DNA of 53,882 bases from Gemmatimonadaceae bacterium (GCA_013697785.1 JACCWE010000169.1:1-53882), one strand, 5' to 3'. Shown: positions 23,887 to 32,039, counted from the first letter of the stretch. Translations and numbers: made by a program. Notes: generated by a model not told the origin, from the letters alone.

Positions 23887-26514
23887 TCAGTCGCGCGGGG
23901 TCATGAGAGCGGCGTAGCCCGGCTCGCCCCGCAGGACTCTGAAGGCGGGATCGACGTGCAGATACAACGGCCACGCGCCCGCATCGATCGCCTCGCGGAG
24001 ACGCGCCACGGCATCCGCGCGATGCCCGAGCAGTGCGGCGTCGCGCGCACGGTAGTAGCTCGCCGTCCAGCTCACGGAGTCTCCGTGTTGACGCGAGAGC
24101 CACGCATCTCCCGCGCTGGTGACCGCGCTATCACCGCGCTCGGCGGCGAGCCCCGCCACCATCCCGCGGTAGTCGACGTTCGTGCTATCGGTGGCGAGCA
24201 GCGATCGCGCGATCTGCTCGGCCTGCGGGTACTGGCCCATGAGGTCGAGCGCCCACACCGCGACGATGCGTTCCTCGATGCTCGAGCGCTCGTCGGCGAC
24301 GCGTCCGCGGTACCAGTCCATTGCTCGCGCCGCAACTTTTTTAGACGTCGCGCTGTCGCCGTGCACCGCGAGCTCGCGCGAGACCCAGACGGCCACCCAC
24401 GCCGGCGTCGCCGAGTACTGAGGCCGCCCGTTCGTGTACGGGGCGAGCCCAAGATGGTTCGACGTTTCCGTCTGCAGCGTGAGCGCGGTGTCGACGAGAG
24501 CGAGCACCTCGCGGGGCCTGCCGAGCGCTGCGAGCGCGCGCCCGCGCAGCCACGCGCGCGTGAGGGGTGCGATGTTCGGCATCTCGCTCGCGCGCCGGAG
24601 CTCATCGTCGTGGCGGCCCAGGAGGTGAAGCGCCTCGGTGAACCCGCTCCAGTAGTCGAAGTGGGATGAGTCGGTGGTCCAACTGAGATCGGTCTGCGGA
24701 TTGATGGTTTCGAGCATCTGGAGCGCGCGCTCCGGGCGATTCGCGTAGAGCGCCGCCGCCGCGGCCGAGATGCGCATGCCGGAGGTTCGCGGCGCGAGCT
24801 CTGCACGCTCGAGGGTGAGTCGCAGCAGCTCGTCGTTGTGGCCGTGGCAGTGCGCGATGCCGATCTGCAGCGACAGCCGCTGGATGCGCTCGATGCGGTG
24901 CCTTGTCGCGCTGAGCGTGCGCGCGATCGAGTCGACGATCGCGCACTGGTTGTTGTTGGACGCGACCGTCGCGGCGGCGATCGCCGCTCCTGTGAAGGCT
25001 GGGTCGTGGCGCGAGGCGTCGAGAAAGAGCACCGTCGCGCGGTTGTAGTCGCCGTGCCAGTAGGCGTCCCAGCCCTCCACATACGACTTGTAGACCTCGA
25101 ACGGCGGAACCTCATCATCGCCTTCGAGGCTTCGCGGCCCGAGATCGTGCATCTGCGCCGCGAGCGCGGTCATCACGCGCGAGCGGAGCTGCTCGAGCGC
25201 GGCAACGGGTGCGTTCGCATCCGCGGCGATCGGGCCGACGGTGCGGACTATTCGGCCCGTTGCCGCATCGGTAACGGACGCCTGGAAGAGGACGCTGTCT
25301 CCCGTGCGGTAATAGTTGCCGGAGACGACCATCGATGCACCGGTGCGATGCGCGAGGGTCACCGGATCTACGATCGATCCATCGGTCGTGCGTCCCTGCA
25401 CGAAGACGGCGCGTGGATCGACGACATCCACGAGCTGGGTGCGCAGAAGTCCCTGCGTCAGCCAGTCCGAGGCCATGCGCCCGAGCGATGCGAAGTGCTC
25501 GTCACCGGTGAGATTTTCGAAAACGTCGACGACTACGCGTGTGCGCGAGGGTCCGGGCGCGCGTACATGCGACGCGCGCGACGTGTGCACGAGCGTCGCC
25601 ACGATCGCCGCCGCGATAAGTGCGCCGAGCGCGATCGCGATGCCGATGCCGCGACGGGAGCGGGGAGGAGCCGCGGTGGGTGGGGCGGCGGCCGCGGTTT
25701 CGGGAGCGAGGTGCACGATCGGATGCTCGGCGACTGCTTCTGCCTTCACGGCCCCACTCGCCTGCGCTGCGGCGCGCGGCGGATGGTGTTCCGCTCCCGC
25801 GCGGATCCGCGCCGCAAGCGCCGCGCTCTCCGCGCTCGGCTTCGCGTCGAACTGGATCGACAGGTGCCGCGCGAAGGAATCGTAGAGCCGGAGCGCGCCG
25901 CCCCGATCGTCGATCGCATCGTGCAGCGACATCGCGCGGCGCAGAAAGCTCTCGTCGTCTGGCATCAGCGTGCAGATCCGCTGCGCCCAGTACGCGGCGC
26001 CTGCGCCTTCGCCCGCCTTCTCGTCGCGCTCGACGAGCGCCCGCAGCGCGCGCACCACCTGCTCGATCACGCGGGCGCGCTCGCGCGTGAGCCACTCTTC
26101 GTACGCCTCGCCCGCGCGGGCGAGGTGCATCCCGGCGAGCAGCTCGCCGCGGTAGTAGTCAACCGCCTCCTCGTATCGCCCCGCCGCCGTGGCCGCGAAC
26201 AGCTTCGTCACATCGCTGGTGATCACGGCGGGATCGATCGTGAGCGCCTCGTCTCCCTTCGTGATGATCACGCCGTCGCCAACGGCTTCGCGAATGTGGT
26301 AGAGCGTGTTCCGGAGCGCGCGGCGCGCGGCGAACTGATCGAGCTCCGGCCAGAACATGGCGGCGAGGCTGTCGCGGCGGTGATAGCCATCGCCGCCGGC
26401 AAGCACCAGATATGCAAGTAGCGCAAAGCGCTTCGGCTGCGCGGGGAGCGAACCGAGCTCGCGCCCTTCCGAGTCGCGGACGGCGTGCAGGCCAAGAAGA
26501 GTTAGCTCGATCAT
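23887..26514 (-). CDS. SARP-like regulator with BTAD, membrane helix, TolB-like domain and TPR repeats
   Basis: About 875 residues with four parts: an N-terminal winged helix (MIELTLLGLHAVRD, then RFALLAYLVLAGG and RRALRNTLYHIREAVG), a bacterial transcriptional activation domain (about 97-250), a single membrane helix (GIAIALGALIAAAIVATLV, about 310-330), then a TolB/FlgO-like domain (VDVFENLTGDEHFASLGR) and a long TPR-like region. So a cytoplasmic DNA-binding head seems tethered to an extracytoplasmic sensor, as in CadC-type regulators. ATG 26514 is chosen since the longer frame adds an unrelated Arg-rich tail overlapping the divergent gene. The target is unknown; the divergent secreted-protein gene is one candidate. 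Confidence 0.82.
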   Translation of the reverse strand: MIELTLLGLHAVRDSEGRELGSLPAQPKRFALLAYLVLAGGDGYHRRDSLAAMFWPELDQFAARRALRNTLYHIREAVGDGVIITKGDEALTIDPAVITSDVTKLFAATAAGRYEEAVDYYRGELLAGMHLARAGEAYEEWLTRERARVIEQVVRALRALVERDEKAGEGAGAAYWAQRICTLMPDDESFLRRAMSLHDAIDDRGGALRLYDSFARHLSIQFDAKPSAESAALAARIRAGAEHHPPRAAAQASGAVKAEAVAEHPIVHLAPETAAAAPPTAAPPRSRRGIGIAIALGALIAAAIVATLVHTSRASHVRAPGPSRTRVVVDVFENLTGDEHFASLGRMASDWLTQGLLRTQLVDVVDPRAVFVQGRTTDGSIVDPVTLAHRTGASMVVSGNYYRTGDSVLFQASVTDAATGRIVRTVGPIAADANAPVAALEQLRSRVMTALAAQMHDLGPRSLEGDDEVPPFEVYKSYVEGWDAYWHGDYNRATVLFLDASRHDPAFTGAAIAAATVASNNNQCAIVDSIARTLSATRHRIERIQRLSLQIGIAHCHGHNDELLRLTLERAELAPRTSGMRISAAAAALYANRPERALQMLETINPQTDLSWTTDSSHFDYWSGFTEALHLLGRHDDELRRASEMPNIAPLTRAWLRGRALAALGRPREVLALVDTALTLQTETSNHLGLAPYTNGRPQYSATPAWVAVWVSRELAVHGDSATSKKVAARAMDWYRGRVADERSSIEERIVAVWALDLMGQYPQAEQIARSLLATDSTNVDYRGMVAGLAAERGDSAVTSAGDAWLSRQHGDSVSWTASYYRARDAALLGHRADAVARLREAIDAGAWPLYLHVDPAFRVLRGEPGYAALMTPRD

Positions 26515-26593
26515 CAGGGTTCGAACGTAGGGACTGCGCCGTCTCTCAGCAATAAACGCCGGTGAGACAGCGCCGCGACGCGACGCGGCTACC

Positions 26594-27118
26594 GTGGGCC
26601 CCGTGATCACTCGCACACGTCCCCTTCGTCAGGCGGCCCTCGCCGTCGCGCTCGCCTCTGCCTGGCTCGTGGCGGACTGCGCGTGCAGCGAGCAGGCATC
26701 CGTGGCGTTACCGCGGGGCAGCGCGTGCGAGCGCGGGCTGCTGACCCCGGAGGATATTGCCGGCGTTCTCCGCGGCCCGATCATCGGCGCGCAGCGTCTG
26801 CCCGAAGATCGTGAGAGTTGCGCATTCACCACGCGCGGGCACTCCCGATTCGAGGTGACCCTTCGTCCTTCGCACGGCACGAAGACGGTCGACCGTTGGA
26901 TCGAAGGCGAGATGGTGCTCGAGGCGGTTCCGCTGCACGGCGTCGGCGATCGCGCGGCGTGGCAGCGCGACCTTCACGAGGTCATCGCCGAGAAGAACGA
27001 CGTGCTCTGCGACATCGCGGTGATGGGCACGGAGGGCGATTTCGTCGACAGCTCCGAGAACGTCCTGCAGCTCCGCATCGGAGACCTATGCAACAAGGTC
27101 TTCGGTACCGTGCACTGA
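26594..27118 (+). CDS. Secreted Cys-containing protein of unknown function
   Basis: About 174 residues, GTG start (26594; a second GTG at 26603 is an alternative). The N-terminus is a basic-then-hydrophobic signal (PLRQAALAVALASAWLV) followed by two closely spaced Cys (DCAC) that do not form a canonical lipobox. The mature part contains four more Cys and the segments LLTPEDIAGVLRGPIIGA and ESCAFTTRGHSRFEVTLRP, a layout reminiscent of secreted DUF3558-like proteins, though I cannot claim that family. It is divergent from the SARP-like regulator with 79 bp between starts. Confidence 0.6.
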   Translation: MGPVITRTRPLRQAALAVALASAWLVADCACSEQASVALPRGSACERGLLTPEDIAGVLRGPIIGAQRLPEDRESCAFTTRGHSRFEVTLRPSHGTKTVDRWIEGEMVLEAVPLHGVGDRAAWQRDLHEVIAEKNDVLCDIAVMGTEGDFVDSSENVLQLRIGDLCNKVFGTVH

Positions 27119-27142: not shown

Positions 27143-28213
27143 CTACTCCGCCGCCACCGCAACCCTCGGCTGCTTGTAGGTGAACCGCTCCCCCTGATAG
27201 TTCCGGAAGATCACCTCGTCATCGGTGATGGATTCCACGTACTCGGGGAGGAGCGGCACCTTGCCGCCGCCGCCCGGAGCGTCGATGACGAAGTGCGGCA
27301 CCGCGAGCCCCGACGTCCATCCGCGGAGCGCCTGGATAATCTCGAGCCCAGTCTGGACCATCGTGCGGAAGTGCTCGCCGCCGGCCACCTGGTCCGCCAT
27401 GTAGATGTAGTACGGACGCACGCGCGCCTTTAGCAGCTCGTGCATCAGCTTCATCATGATCTTCGGATCGTCGTTGACGCCCTTGAGCAGCACTGTCTGG
27501 CAGCCCAGCACGACTCCGGCGCGCGAGAGCCGGTCGAGCGACGTGACCGCCGCCGGCGTGAGCTCGCTCGGATGATTGAAGTGCGTGTTCATGTAGATGG
27601 GATGATACTTCTGCACCATCTCGCAGAACTCCGGCGTAATACGCTCCGGCAAATGCGACGTTATCCGGCTGCCGATGCGGATGATCTCGATGTGCGGGAT
27701 CTCACGCAGCTTCTGCAGGATGTACTCGATGCGCCTGTCCGAGAGCATCATGGGGTCGCCGCCCGAGAGAATCACATCGCGGATCTCCGTATGTTCGGCC
27801 AGATAGGCGAAGGCCGAATCGTACTGGTTGAGCGGGATCTTCTCGGGATCACCGACCTTCCGCCGCCGCGTGCAGAAGCGGCAGTACGACGCGCACACCG
27901 GGCTCACGAGGAAGAGCGCGCGGTCAGGATATCTGTGAGTGATGTTCGGCACCGGCGAGTCGCCGTCCTCGTCGAGCGAGTCGACGACGCCGTCCACGAT
28001 GTCCAGCTCGCGGATCGTCGGCACGTACTGATTCCACATCGCGTCGCCGACTTCCTTGATCTGGTCGAGCGCGGCTGGAGTGATGCGGACCTGAAAGCCA
28101 TCGAACGCCGGCCGCAGCGCCTCGACGTCGATCACGTCGTGGCCGAACTTCTCGGCCAGCTTCTCGAGCGTGTCCACGCTGCCTTCGCGCAGAATCGTCT
28201 GCCACTCACTCAC
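27143..28213 (-). CDS. kamA: Lysine 2,3-aminomutase (KamA family radical SAM enzyme)
   Basis: A 356-residue radical SAM enzyme that would move the alpha-amino group of L-lysine to carbon 3, giving beta-lysine, using PLP and S-adenosylmethionine. The iron-sulfur motif is Cys107-x3-Cys111-x2-Cys114 (VCASYCRFCTRRRK); SGGDPMMLSD follows; the PLP lysine is Lys318 in DAPGGGGKVP. Asp274 (YMADQ) and Asp311 (DAPGGGG) match by eye the two Asp that bind the lysine side chain in clostridial KamA and that glutamate 2,3-aminomutase lacks, so lysine is the likely substrate. GTG 28213 overlaps the stop of the GNAT gene. The operon context argues for beta-lysine used in a small product rather than EF-P modification. 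Confidence 0.9.
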   Translation of the reverse strand: MSEWQTILREGSVDTLEKLAEKFGHDVIDVEALRPAFDGFQVRITPAALDQIKEVGDAMWNQYVPTIRELDIVDGVVDSLDEDGDSPVPNITHRYPDRALFLVSPVCASYCRFCTRRRKVGDPEKIPLNQYDSAFAYLAEHTEIRDVILSGGDPMMLSDRRIEYILQKLREIPHIEIIRIGSRITSHLPERITPEFCEMVQKYHPIYMNTHFNHPSELTPAAVTSLDRLSRAGVVLGCQTVLLKGVNDDPKIMMKLMHELLKARVRPYYIYMADQVAGGEHFRTMVQTGLEIIQALRGWTSGLAVPHFVIDAPGGGGKVPLLPEYVESITDDEVIFRNYQGERFTYKQPRVAVAAE

Positions 28214-28725
28214 GGCGTCTCCTCGCCGGCGCGCACCGCCAGCTGCTTCGAGAAAATCACGCGATCGTCGTCCACTGCATAAAACCCGGCCACGCGGGCG
28301 CGTTCCACGTATCCGCCACGCTCGTAGAACTCGCGCGTCTGCGCGTACGCATCGCGCGACGACGTCTCGGCCACGAGCAGTCGCGCACCACGGCCGCGGA
28401 GCAGCTCCTCGACCGCGCGCATCATCGCGCTACCGTAGCCACCGCCGTGCGCACGCGGATCGACGGCGATCCAGTAGAGGTCGTAGCCGCCGTCGGTGCC
28501 GGGAGTCGGACCCCAGCACGCGTAGCCCTGAAGCGTGCTGTGCTCGTCGAACACTCCCAGCAGCTCGTAGCTCTCCGCGCTCTGCATCCCTTCGTCGAAG
28601 AGCTCGAGCGCGACGTCGATCTCGGAGGGAGCGAAGACGCCCGTCGCTTCGAGAATCTCGACGAGGCGCTCGCGATGGTGCGACGCGAGCGGACCAACGA
28701 GCCGGGGCAGCCGCCCGGCGCTCAT
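28210..28725 (-). CDS. GNAT-family N-acetyltransferase
   Basis: A 171-residue GNAT protein. The acetyl-CoA site is in IAVDPRAHGGGYGSAMMRAV (the Q/R-x-x-G-x-G/A motif as HGGGYGSAM), and the C-terminal part has the usual Asp/Tyr-rich strand-helix (SRDAYAQTREFYERGGY). It sits 8 bp after an ATP-grasp gene and overlaps the lysine 2,3-aminomutase start. Together with KamA this recalls the AblA-AblB route to N-epsilon-acetyl-beta-lysine, but AblB-type enzymes are clearly longer, so it is not an obvious AblB. It may acetylate beta-lysine or the dipeptide made by the neighbouring ligases. Confidence 0.82.
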   Translation of the reverse strand: MSAGRLPRLVGPLASHHRERLVEILEATGVFAPSEIDVALELFDEGMQSAESYELLGVFDEHSTLQGYACWGPTPGTDGGYDLYWIAVDPRAHGGGYGSAMMRAVEELLRGRGARLLVAETSSRDAYAQTREFYERGGYVERARVAGFYAVDDDRVIFSKQLAVRAGEETP

Positions 28726-28733
28726 GGTGCCGC

Positions 28734-29795
28734 TCAGCTTTGCCCGACGGCGAACAGCTCGAGGGCCGCGCCCTGCTCTTCGACCATGACGCCGGAAAGC
28801 CGCTGGGCGAGCACCCACCGGTCGGCGGTAGATGGACGCTCGCGGTGCAGTCCGCGCTCGCAGATCGCGCGAACGAGTGCGCCGTAGTCGAGCCCCTCGA
28901 CGCCGGCCATGCGCGCGAGCCCCGCGTCCGGCGAGATGTCGGGATTCGAGTTCACCTCGAGGATCCACGGCTTCCCCGCACGATCGATGCGGAAGTCGAC
29001 GCGGCCGTAGCCGTCGCCGCCGACGACCTGCCATGCCTGGAGCGCGATGCGCTGAAGCTCCTCGGTGAGATCGGGCGACAGATTCGCCGGACACTGCGGC
29101 TGCGCCCCGGTGTCCTCATCGCTCCCCGTCGCCCACTTCGAGCGGTACGACACGATGCGCCACATTCCCTTGGGCATCGCGTCGAACTGAATCTCGGATA
29201 CGGGGAGCACGGTGTCGCCGACGATGCCGACGTTCACCTCGCGGCCGTCGATGTAGCGCTGGACGATCACCTCATCCCACCGCTCGTGCATCGAGGCGAC
29301 GCGCTCGGCCAGCGCACGCGCGGTGCGCACCACCGAGCGCTGCTCGACGCCCACCGAAGCATCCTCGGCGGCCGGCTTGCAGATCGCCGGGAAGCCGACA
29401 GCAGGGATCGGATCGCCGCGCCGTACGATTGCGAAGCGTGGAATCGGCAGACGGCAGCGATCGAGGATCGCGTTTACGACGTGCTTGCGGAGGCACAGCG
29501 AGGTGGTCCACGACGAGCTGCCCGTGAACGGAATGCCGAGCACCTCGAGCGCCGAGATGACTGTGGGCTCGAGCTCGGCCACGCCGTCGATGCCTTCGCA
29601 GAGATTGAAGGCGACGTCGCACTTGGTGCGGCGCGTGCGCTCGATCCACCGGCCATCTGTGTTCACCGGAACGCGCACGACCTTGTTCCCCTCGGCTTCG
29701 AGCACGGCCTCGACGGCCTCGACGGTCTCGAGGATGGCCAGGTCAGGCGTCTTGCCGAGCGCTGATGCGCCGTCGAATAAGAGAGCAATTTTCAT
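28734..29795 (-). CDS. ATP-grasp ligase, D-Ala-D-Ala ligase-like (first of two)
   Basis: A 353-residue ATP-grasp enzyme of the Ddl fold. Landmarks: VAFNLCEGIDGVAELEPTVI and IPFTGSSSWTTSLCLRKHVV, the ATP-binding Lys in FPAICKPAAEDASVGV (residues 135-150), IVQRYIDGREVNVGIVGD, and the metal-binding Glu280/Asn282 in WILEVNSNPD. Such enzymes form a peptide bond through an acyl-phosphate. It differs from true D-Ala-D-Ala ligases around the last motif (NSNPDISPDAG rather than N-T-x-P-G-M-T), so another amino acid pair is likely. It lies between a second ATP-grasp gene and the GNAT-kamA pair in one operon. Confidence 0.85.
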   Translation of the reverse strand: MKIALLFDGASALGKTPDLAILETVEAVEAVLEAEGNKVVRVPVNTDGRWIERTRRTKCDVAFNLCEGIDGVAELEPTVISALEVLGIPFTGSSSWTTSLCLRKHVVNAILDRCRLPIPRFAIVRRGDPIPAVGFPAICKPAAEDASVGVEQRSVVRTARALAERVASMHERWDEVIVQRYIDGREVNVGIVGDTVLPVSEIQFDAMPKGMWRIVSYRSKWATGSDEDTGAQPQCPANLSPDLTEELQRIALQAWQVVGGDGYGRVDFRIDRAGKPWILEVNSNPDISPDAGLARMAGVEGLDYGALVRAICERGLHRERPSTADRWVLAQRLSGVMVEEQGAALELFAVGQS

Positions 29796-29852
29796 TTACG
29801 TCCCCGCCTCGTGGTGGGCGACGCGCGAAATCCGGAGCGAAGCTTCGCGCGA

Positions 29853-31076
29853 TCAGCCCAACGCCGCTGTGCGTCGCACTCGACGCGCAGCCTTTCCCGA
29901 CAGGGTGATCCCCTGTCGCTCCGCGGCGAAACGCAGGGAGCGCTGGATGAGCTCATCGTAGCTCAATCCGGCTGCCCGCGCCGCTTTGGGAAAGCACGAG
30001 TTGTCCTCGGGACGGGGAAGGATTCCCGGAAGGGGATTCACTTCCACCACGTTCGGCACGCCGGCGGCATCGAGACGCACATCGATGCGCGACCAATCGC
30101 GGCAGCCGAGAACCTGGTAGGCGGAGAGCACGACCTCTTCGATCCTGCTCCGCAGCACCTCATCGATCCTCGCAGGGCACTCAAAAATCTGCAACGGGTG
30201 GCTGCGATCGTCCCACAGCCACTTGGCTTCGAAGCCATACACCGGAAGCGCGCCCGGCGGCAGAGCATCGAAGTTCATCGCGACGATCGGCAACACGTGC
30301 GCGCCGTCGCCATTCCCCATCACCGCGCAGGTGAACTCGCGGCCCGGGAGATATTCCTCCACGAGCACGGGTTGCGCGTACCGCTCGAGGAGGAACGCAG
30401 TCTGTACCTGCGCTTCGCTCACCGTGCGGCAATAGTTGTCTTCCGTGATTCCCTTGGACGAGCCTTCGTGCACCGGCTTCACGAACAGCGGAAGGCGAAG
30501 GCGCGTGCTGCCACTCTTCGTCCTGCGCGTGGTGAGGCGGTCGAGCATCGCGGGGATCTCGGCGGCGTTCCGGATGAGCGCGAAGGGCGCCGTCGGTACG
30601 CCGTGGTACGCCAGAAACTCTTTCGCGCGCGCCTTGTCGAGGCACAGCGACAGAGAGAATGGATCGGATCCCGAATACGGAATGCCGAAGAATTCGCAAA
30701 TTGCGGGAACGTGGGCTTCGCGATTCACGCCGCCCATTCCTTCCGCGATGTTGTAGACGATGTCCGGTTGCGTTGCTCGAAGGCGCTCGGGGAAATCTGC
30801 GTTCGCCTCGAGGCGGACTACTTCGCCGAGGGCGCCGAGTGCATTGGCGACGGCATTGATGGTCTCGGCGCTATCCCACTCCGCGAACTCATCGTCGACT
30901 TCGGCCGCGGCGACGCCGCCGGCCCGCGAGGACGCCGCGGCATCCGCGGCGCTCGCCCAAGCGGTTGAGGCGATACTGGGAGGCTCTTCGTCGGGACGCG
31001 CACCCGCGGCGCCGTCCTCGAGACGAAGAGCAGGTACTTCAGGCTTCTGATTGTACGCGAACCCGATACGTGTCAT
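29853..31076 (-). CDS. ATP-grasp ligase, D-Ala-D-Ala ligase-like (second of two)
   Basis: About 407 residues. The N-terminal domain is interrupted by an Ala/Ser-rich stretch at residues 22-60. Then come the Ddl-like elements: DIVYNIAEGMGGVNREAHV, IPYSGSDPFSLSLCLDK, the ATP-binding Lys in PLFVKPVHEGSSKGI (about 200-210), LVEEYLPGREFTCAVMG, and VVEVNPLPGILPRPEDNS. It is related to, but clearly different from, the ligase downstream, so the two probably catalyse different bonds or use different amino acids. ATG 31076 (MTRIGFAYN) fits the family start better than the longer frame. It is the first gene of the four-gene operon; a 213-bp, locally more A+T-rich leader precedes it. Confidence 0.85.
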   Translation of the reverse strand: MTRIGFAYNQKPEVPALRLEDGAAGARPDEEPPSIASTAWASAADAAASSRAGGVAAAEVDDEFAEWDSAETINAVANALGALGEVVRLEANADFPERLRATQPDIVYNIAEGMGGVNREAHVPAICEFFGIPYSGSDPFSLSLCLDKARAKEFLAYHGVPTAPFALIRNAAEIPAMLDRLTTRRTKSGSTRLRLPLFVKPVHEGSSKGITEDNYCRTVSEAQVQTAFLLERYAQPVLVEEYLPGREFTCAVMGNGDGAHVLPIVAMNFDALPPGALPVYGFEAKWLWDDRSHPLQIFECPARIDEVLRSRIEEVVLSAYQVLGCRDWSRIDVRLDAAGVPNVVEVNPLPGILPRPEDNSCFPKAARAAGLSYDELIQRSLRFAAERQGITLSGKAARRVRRTAALG

Positions 31077-31287: not shown

Positions 31288-31304
31288 TTTCACACTTTGT
31301 GAAA
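31288..31304. promoter_or_regulatory. Palindrome TTTCACA-CTT-TGTGAAA at the end of thyX
   Basis: Perfect 7-bp arms with a 3-base centre overlap the thyX stop codon. Read on the minus strand the hairpin is followed by TAAAGTC. It may be a weak terminator for thyX or an operator for the ligase-kamA operon downstream; the A+T-rich context is unusual for this DNA. Confidence 0.35.
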
Positions 31305-32039
31305 GCTGACTCTCGCTGCCTCGCGCCGATCGTCGCCGACGTAGATCTCGAAGTCGGAAAAGAAGCCCGGTGCCTCCTCGGCGAGCCGTCGCAGCGTCGC
31401 TACCGCCAGCCGCCGAATCTCCAGCTCCGCGCCCTCACTCGATCTGAGCTCGAGCATTGTCCGCCAGGCGCGGGCGTTCGCCGTCACCACGATCTTCGTC
31501 TCCGTGGAGTTCGGCAGCACGCCGCGCGCGGCCTCACGCGCCATTTTCCGCCGATGGACTTTGTCCGCGACCCAGGAGTAACGCTCCATCAGCTGCTCGA
31601 CGAGCGCGATGTAGCTCGTGAGCGCGCCGTCCACCTGGCTGCGCCACGCGCCCTCGAGCGCCTCGTCGCCCGCCACCGCCGGCGGCACGACGAAGCTCGC
31701 GTCCTTCTCGTCGACGTATCGCTGCGACAGCTGCGAGTAGGCGAAGCCCGCCCGGTGGCGCACCAGCTCGTGCGTGAGCGAGCGACTCACGCCCTCGAAG
31801 AGCAGCGAGTAGTTCGCGTGCTCGAGAACGCTCCCGTGCCCCTGCTTCTTGATGTTCTGCAGATAATCCCGCGTCGTGCGCCCCGCCGGATTCTTCTGAC
31901 TCATGTAGCAGAGTCGTCCCGCAAACTCGGCCAGCTGCTCGCCGGCGGTGCTCTCGCCGAGCCAGGCGACGCCAAGGTGCTCGGGTGTGGTGAAGGTCGG
32001 CTTCGCGAGAAGGGTGATGCGCGGCTCGTAGTAGTACAC
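31290..32039 (-). CDS. thyX: Flavin-dependent thymidylate synthase ThyX
   Basis: A 249-residue ThyX, converting dUMP to dTMP with FAD and methylene-tetrahydrofolate. The signature region is ELVRHRAGFAYSQLSQRYV (RHR at 94-96), preceded by LEHANYSLLFEGVSRSLTHE and followed by GVLPNSTETKIVVTANARAW. Compared with the usual RHR-x7-S motif, one more residue lies between RHR and the Ser of LSQRY. GTG 32039 is supported by GGAG five bases upstream; the much longer open frame is antisense to nothing useful and unlike the family. It follows the FAD-linked oxidase gene by 26 bp. Confidence 0.92.
   Translation of the reverse strand: MYYYEPRITLLAKPTFTTPEHLGVAWLGESTAGEQLAEFAGRLCYMSQKNPAGRTTRDYLQNIKKQGHGSVLEHANYSLLFEGVSRSLTHELVRHRAGFAYSQLSQRYVDEKDASFVVPPAVAGDEALEGAWRSQVDGALTSYIALVEQLMERYSWVADKVHRRKMAREAARGVLPNSTETKIVVTANARAWRTMLELRSSEGAELEIRRLAVATLRRLAEEAPGFFSDFEIYVGDDRREAARVSFHKV

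Follow-up and report, generated by a model that had tools for sequence, protein, structure and literature searches.

A conserved gene cassette encoding a lysine 2,3-aminomutase family enzyme, two ATP-grasp ligases and a GNAT acetyltransferase in Gemmatimonadota and other bacterial phyla

Organisation of the locus

The window analysed here, a stretch of 53,882 nucleotides from a Gemmatimonadaceae bacterium, lies on contig C114 of a 3.81-Mb genome assembled in 169 contigs. Its closest matches are Gemmatimonadota MAGs, with LIG2 reaching 97% identity in L002. Four closely packed genes and an upstream neighbour are relevant to the present analysis:

LIG1, 29853-31076, minus strand: 407 aa, ATP-grasp ligase of the D-Ala-D-Ala ligase fold (Pfam PF07478)
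LIG2, 28734-29795, minus strand: 353 aa, second ATP-grasp ligase of the D-Ala-D-Ala ligase fold (Pfam PF07478)
GNAT, 28210-28725, minus strand: 171 aa acetyltransferase, ATG start (PF00583/PF13508; PDB 2r7h family)
KamA, 27143-28213, minus strand: 356 aa, radical SAM lysine 2,3-aminomutase family, GTG start
thyX, 31290-32030 (start approximate), minus strand: upstream of LIG1 (TIGR02170)

LIG1 and LIG2 are separated by 57 bp, LIG2 and GNAT by 8 bp, and GNAT and KamA overlap by 4 bp (GTGA). As a mechanical ORF, GNAT extends to 29094, and its real start is most likely the ATG at 28725. The coordinates, strand, spacing and motifs of the four genes at 27143-31076 are all as claimed in the first-pass annotation of this DNA. 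A GlcD-type FAD oxidase gene and thyX lie upstream of the cassette and occupy the same position in two other Gemmatimonadota (L017, L020), which makes synteny probable; thyX is thus probably a syntenic neighbour outside the pathway. A promoter and terminator scan gave no sigma-70-like site, and terminators occurred at chance level.

The aminomutase

KamA aligns over 346 residues with the Clostridium lysine 2,3-aminomutase (LAM) of known structure (2a5h; E 1.6e-105). With a constant offset of 19 residues, D274 and D311 correspond to D293 and D330 of LAM and K318 to its PLP lysine K337, and the radical SAM motif CxxxCxxC is formed by C107, C111 and C114; the aspartates and the complete motif noted earlier are thus borne out by this alignment. 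The roles of the Asp pair, which reads the ε-amine of lysine, the PLP lysine and the radical SAM cysteines are established knowledge of LAM, and an alignment of eight cassette KamAs shows no variation at any of these six positions.

The protein passes the KamA subfamily model TIGR00238. However, its score of 414.8 lies below the cut-off of 525.4 for the AblA equivalog TIGR03820, as do those of five relative cassette KamAs (461-496), and it stops about 55 residues short of the C-terminal end of that profile. Judged by the low score and the missing C-terminal part, the window KamA is a member of the KamA family and not formally an AblA. The EpmB model is likewise not reached (214.1 versus a cut-off of 369.3), and the five relatives behave alike. 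In the KamA tree, the cassette KamAs are placed apart from EpmB; since Clostridium LAM and a second KamA of one genome (G206) fall among them, no cassette-only clade is claimed. The conserved residues suggest that KamA acts on free lysine, giving β-lysine.

The two ATP-grasp ligases

The best PDB sequence and fold matches of both ligases are all D-Ala-D-Ala ligases (Ddl). The predicted model of LIG1 (pLDDT 79.9, with a low-confidence insert at residues 14-64) is closest to Ddl 4c5a, and that of LIG2 (pLDDT 85.6) to DdlA 8evx. Both proteins are, however, far below the cut-offs of the NCBIfam Ddl models, scoring 138 and 130 bits against 245.65 for the D-Ala-D-Ala ligase family TIGR01205.

Active-site columns, in the numbering of Escherichia coli DdlB, were compared among 96 LIG1 sequences, 86 LIG2 sequences and 14 canonical Ddl of relatives. 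The ATP/Mg residues K97, K144, E187, K215, R255, D257 and N272 are invariant in all the LIG1 and LIG2 sequences, and E270, also an ATP/Mg residue, is nearly so. The canonical enzymes carry S150, Y216, G276, S281 and L282 in 14/14 cases; of these, S150, Y216 and the pair S281-L282 serve in D-Ala-D-Ala recognition. LIG1 has kept the first-site S or T at column 150 and retains G276, with Y216 and L282 absent from 96/96 sequences, although an insertion near 281-282 in the alignment makes those two LIG1 columns less sure. In LIG2, column 150 is A or G, so that S150 is absent from 86/86 sequences; W216 and G282 are each found in 86/86, and column 276 is mostly C or D. The statement that both ligases keep the ATP-grasp motifs and depart from true D-Ala-D-Ala ligases is therefore confirmed by the active-site columns.

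A maximum-likelihood tree resolves LIG1, LIG2 and canonical Ddl as three separate groups (support 94/83, 100/97 and 100/100). Of 79 family genomes, 68 encode a canonical Ddl that exceeds the TIGR01205 cut-off, among them two of the same genus as the window (G856 and G875, 298 and 309 bits); in cassette carriers it occurs alongside both ligases. In the 169-contig draft of the window genome no Ddl above this cut-off was found, for which an incomplete assembly is the simplest explanation. From their sequences, LIG1 and LIG2 are two lineages distinct from the housekeeping Ddl in which D-Ala-D-Ala recognition residues have been lost. An ATP-grasp substrate pocket can be read from sequence only with low confidence, and the ligase substrates given below are proposals.

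The acetyltransferase and an additional fifth gene

The cassette GNAT belongs to the same family as PDB 2r7h (E 1.7e-33; 2.6e-45 from L155). This structure was deposited as a 'putative D-alanine N-acetyltransferase of GNAT family', a depositors' label that may have come from gene context; we know of no substrate for it. The AblB model gave no match to the cassette GNAT, and the RimI and PRK03624 models gave weak matches only. Five Gemmatimonadota copies (L008, L010, L011, L016 and L081) have no GNAT between LIG2 and KamA, and acetylation is thus not universal at the locus.

In some Desulfobacterota and Planctomycetota, a fifth gene is found downstream of LIG2 (L024, L026, L150, L155, L156 and L163); no counterpart was detected in the window. 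Its product of about 600 aa combines an N-terminal GNAT-like domain with a domain of the histone deacetylase fold, the closest solved relatives of which are acetylpolyamine amidohydrolases (9gkz, 6phr and 3q9b). This resemblance suggests both addition and removal of an acetyl group on an amine. Unlike these amidohydrolases, the domain is fused to the GNAT-like domain.

Distribution, gene order and gene fusions

Cassette genes were located by tblastn; a simple gene caller favoured some antisense ORFs. Short and weak matches in Paenibacillus and Cohnella (L029-L077) were set aside. The genes stand together in at least five phyla, with examples in Gemmatimonadota, Desulfobacterota, Planctomycetota, Verrucomicrobiota and one Riflebacteria MAG, mostly in one of two gene orders, KamA-LIG1-LIG2-GNAT or LIG1-LIG2-GNAT-KamA. 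LIG2 orthologues (E < 1e-70) are present in 64 of 200 Gemmatimonadota genomes, and LIG1 homologues (E <= 1e-60) in 58 of 247 Desulfobacterota, 11 of 195 Verrucomicrobiota and 26 of 199 Planctomycetota genomes, the last three samples being named after the records on which the searches were centred (L027, L023 and L028, respectively). Many of the carriers are soil or groundwater MAGs.

Among 61 sampled LIG1 loci of the three other phyla, 50 have KamA no more than 1.5 kb from LIG1 (Desulfobacterota 30/30, Verrucomicrobiota 9/11, Planctomycetota 11/20), a clustering far beyond chance, and LIG2 is present in 49. A KamA that is not adjacent to LIG1 is mostly encoded at another site: 34 of the 36 LIG1-bearing Planctomycetota and Verrucomicrobiota have a KamA match somewhere in the genome. 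The 199 Planctomycetota genomes comprise 24 with both a cassette-type KamA and LIG1, 2 with LIG1 only, 12 with KamA only and 161 with neither (Fisher p 6e-20, a genome-wide value that ignores shared ancestry and includes non-adjacent cases). The four genes, which the first-pass annotation proposed to seek together in other genomes, co-occur widely and across phyla. Several groupings (L122/L126/L142, L145/L147, the Gemmatimonadota copies and L017/L018) are common to the LIG1, LIG2 and KamA trees. In some Planctomycetota KamA is found away from the ligase locus, and the ligases can have a class V aminotransferase or a CxxCxxCC protein as a neighbour; the product may therefore vary.

Three kinds of gene fusion, a classic sign that proteins act in one pathway, were observed. 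KamA and LIG1 share one reading frame of 746 aa in L022; LIG1 and LIG2 form a single open frame in L019 and L136; and GNAT is attached to the C-terminus of LIG2 in L023, L025, L027, L089, L113, L122, L123, L126, L139 and L144. A fusion seen in a single MAG could be an assembly error; the LIG2-GNAT fusion recurs in several phyla. In L022 the partner of LIG2 at the same place is a GNAT of an unrelated type (PF13302); an acyltransferase step was thus recruited independently in this case.

The earlier observation is correct but understated. The fusions, the GNAT-deacetylase fifth gene, the spread across phyla and the solved structure 2r7h of the GNAT family were absent from it.

Relation to known systems and alternative explanations

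The open-access literature, with few subscription papers and no preprints, yielded work on ablA-ablB and EF-P and no description of the gene set, in line with the first-pass annotation, which knew of no described pathway with these genes; nothing was found there on the 2r7h locus. The nearest known systems share parts of the cassette. Like AblA-AblB, it pairs a KamA-family lysine 2,3-aminomutase with a GNAT acetyltransferase; unlike that pair, it has a GNAT of the 2r7h family without a match to AblB, a C-terminally shorter KamA below the AblA cut-off, two added ATP-grasp ligases and, in some lineages, the GNAT-deacetylase. The N-acetylglutaminylglutamine amide (NAGGN) pathway combines a GNAT with an ATP-grasp peptide ligase in a fused GNAT-ATP-grasp synthetase. 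The cassette likewise brings the two activities together, fused in some lineages, but it has two Ddl-fold ligases, its GNAT comes after LIG2, and the asparagine synthetase-like amidotransferase gives way to a lysine aminomutase. With the D-Ala-D-Ala and D-Ala-D-Lac/Ser ligases, the nearest solved structures, the cassette ligases share the fold and the ATP-grasp catalytic residues, whereas S150 (in LIG2) and Y216 and L282 (in both) are replaced; they also score at least 100 bits below the TIGR01205 cut-off and coexist with canonical Ddl in relatives. EpmB-EpmA also includes a KamA-family enzyme making β-lysine, but the partners of the cassette KamA are ATP-grasp ligases, and the genome holds no EpmA above its cut-off.

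The logic of NAGGN synthesis, a GNAT with an ATP-grasp ligase, and that of AblA-AblB, KamA with a GNAT, would both fit an ablA-ablB variant that yields mainly Nε-acetyl-β-lysine, or this compound in capped form, as a compatible solute in the manner of NAGGN. In Pelobacter carbinolicus, AblA-AblB has been put forward as a means of tolerating salt (PMC3543383), and a Na+ riboswitch can control ablA (PMC9337991). However, scans of the window region and of the surroundings of 28 loci found neither a Na+ nor a c-di-AMP riboswitch, the cassette GNAT does not match the AblB model, many carriers come from non-saline habitats such as soil or groundwater, and Nε-acetyl-β-lysine needs no pair of conserved ligases; this explanation is considered unlikely. 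Distinctly unlikely is a specialised metabolite with β-lysine only as a side group, which could be a thiol-type cofactor or a peptide secreted for its bioactivity or metal binding. Some antibiotics, streptothricin and viomycin among them, contain β-lysine, and a protecting scheme of acetylation, ligation and deacetylation would suit the GNAT-deacetylase gene. But the loci scanned had no constant neighbour that could be recognised as a transporter, resistance or NRPS gene, and a compact core conserved across phyla is more suggestive of primary or stress metabolism. A role in the cell wall, with LIG1 and LIG2 making peptidoglycan precursors or cross-bridges (a β-lysine bridge or a D-Ala-X terminus) and KamA supplying β-lysine, would agree with the nearness of both ligases to Ddl in sequence and predicted structure. 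It is nevertheless improbable, given that no mur or penicillin-binding gene was recognised among the cassette neighbours examined, most family members have a separate canonical Ddl, and D-Ala-D-Ala recognition residues are gone from both ligases.

Two further explanations were rejected. That LIG1 or LIG2 is the ordinary D-Ala-D-Ala ligase of the cell might be argued from the lack of a Ddl above the cut-off in the draft genome, but this is very improbable in view of the canonical enzymes in most family genomes, the residues lost from the cassette ligases and kept in 14/14 canonical Ddls, and the separate lineages in the tree. Hence the possibility raised at the outset, that these are housekeeping Ddl, finds no support in scores, residues, tree or relatives. 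It is still less probable that KamA serves the β-lysylation of EF-P, with the other genes as chance neighbours. Although the cassette KamA is the sole KamA-family match found in the window's genome, its EpmB score is far below the cut-off, and cassette KamAs are adjacent to or fused with ligases. No EpmA above the cut-off was found in this genome: the best match, EpmA-like at 249 bits on contig C19 behind a release-factor gene, is LysRS. In two other genomes a true EpmB coexists with the cassette KamA (G207 and G734, 390 and 432 bits), and that of G207 adjoins EF-P- and EpmA-like genes, as assigned by eye. The cassette KamA is thus not an EpmB, nor does it have an EpmA partner that passes the cut-off, and the exclusive EF-P role once allowed for it falls away.

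Proposed pathway

As expected for a single conserved pathway, the genes occur together in distant genomes, where they can be adjacent or fused. Together with a KamA that is not of the EF-P type and ligases that are not Ddl, the co-occurrence makes it well supported that the four genes serve one pathway of β-lysine formation, two ligations and acetyl transfer. Our preferred reading, with a probability of roughly 0.6, is a conserved orphan pathway for an N-acetylated, β-lysine-containing metabolite resembling a di- or tripeptide.

KamA would first convert L-lysine to β-lysine (3,6-diaminohexanoate) with SAM, a [4Fe-4S] cluster and PLP; its enzyme class is evident from the sequence, and the reaction is the one that the conserved residues point to. 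LIG1 would then use ATP to form an acyl-phosphate on a carboxylate and couple it to an amino group, and the KamA-LIG1 fusion in L022 suggests β-lysine as one of the partners. LIG2, with a different invariant pocket, may add another amino acid or an amine. The repeated LIG2-GNAT fusions suggest that GNAT acts on the substrate or product of LIG2, of which it would acetylate an amine. In some lineages the GNAT-deacetylase may add, remove or recycle an acetyl group, which might, for instance, protect the ε-amine. The product would be made by taxonomically unrelated bacteria of soils and sediments. The first-pass annotation had proposed an acylated β-lysine-containing di- or tripeptide, perhaps a compatible solute. 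The single pathway stands and the nature of the product remains a proposal, but its role as a compatible solute, while one possibility, is unsupported, considering the riboswitch result and the habitats of many carriers.

Biological significance

Ligase homologues are present in about a quarter of the sampled Desulfobacterota, a third of the Gemmatimonadota, 13% of the Planctomycetota and 6% of the Verrucomicrobiota, and at most of the loci examined they lie beside other genes of the cassette; the metabolite may thus be common in soils and sediments. More tentatively, with the odds somewhat against it, the cassettes of these four phyla may represent a widespread and undescribed class of non-ribosomal β-lysine peptides, assembled by an aminomutase and two divergent Ddl-fold ligases, with an acetyl group put on for protection and later taken off, and serving as solutes or cofactors. 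Genes of the cassette readily attract the name 'D-Ala-D-Ala ligase', and a solved structure bears the label 'D-alanine N-acetyltransferase'; in the light of the cassette, both names are probably wrong. The cassette offers two distinct classes of Ddl-fold ligases for enzyme discovery, together with a testable pathway.

D-Ala-D-Ala ligase homologues in the genome

Two further Ddl-like ligases, L171 on contig C71 and L172 on contig C117, were identified in the draft genome that holds the window; both score below the Ddl cut-off (TIGR01205, 245.65 bits), lack the canonical pocket motif and possibly belong to other ATP-grasp pathways. No canonical D-Ala-D-Ala ligase above the cut-off was found in this draft (listed completeness 100), which is probably due to an assembly gap, because genomes of the same genus carry one.

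Gene content in and around the cassettes

The following neighbour lies 3' of the window's cassette, on the same strand:
23887-26616, minus strand, encoding a BTAD activator domain protein of 909 aa

In two metagenome-assembled loci the ligase matches are in pieces interrupted by gaps (both LIG1 and LIG2 in L016, 3417-5367; LIG1 in L019, 1094-2030), which may reflect assembly errors or decay.

Cassettes of several phyla include a GNAT fused to an acetylpolyamine-amidohydrolase-like deacetylase:
L150, 9282-11543
L155, 3897-5732
L156, 9389-11179
L163, 4796-6532
L024, 6557-7837
L026, 8991-10721

Two Planctomycetota loci have a CxxCxxCC (PF03692) protein separating KamA from LIG1:
L163, 8532-9041
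L164, 9384-10082

In two other Planctomycetota, KamA is encoded at another genomic place, not beside LIG1-LIG2, and a class V aminotransferase immediately precedes the ligase pair, which may be a sign of a variant product:
L161, 6283-7473
L162, 8948-10132
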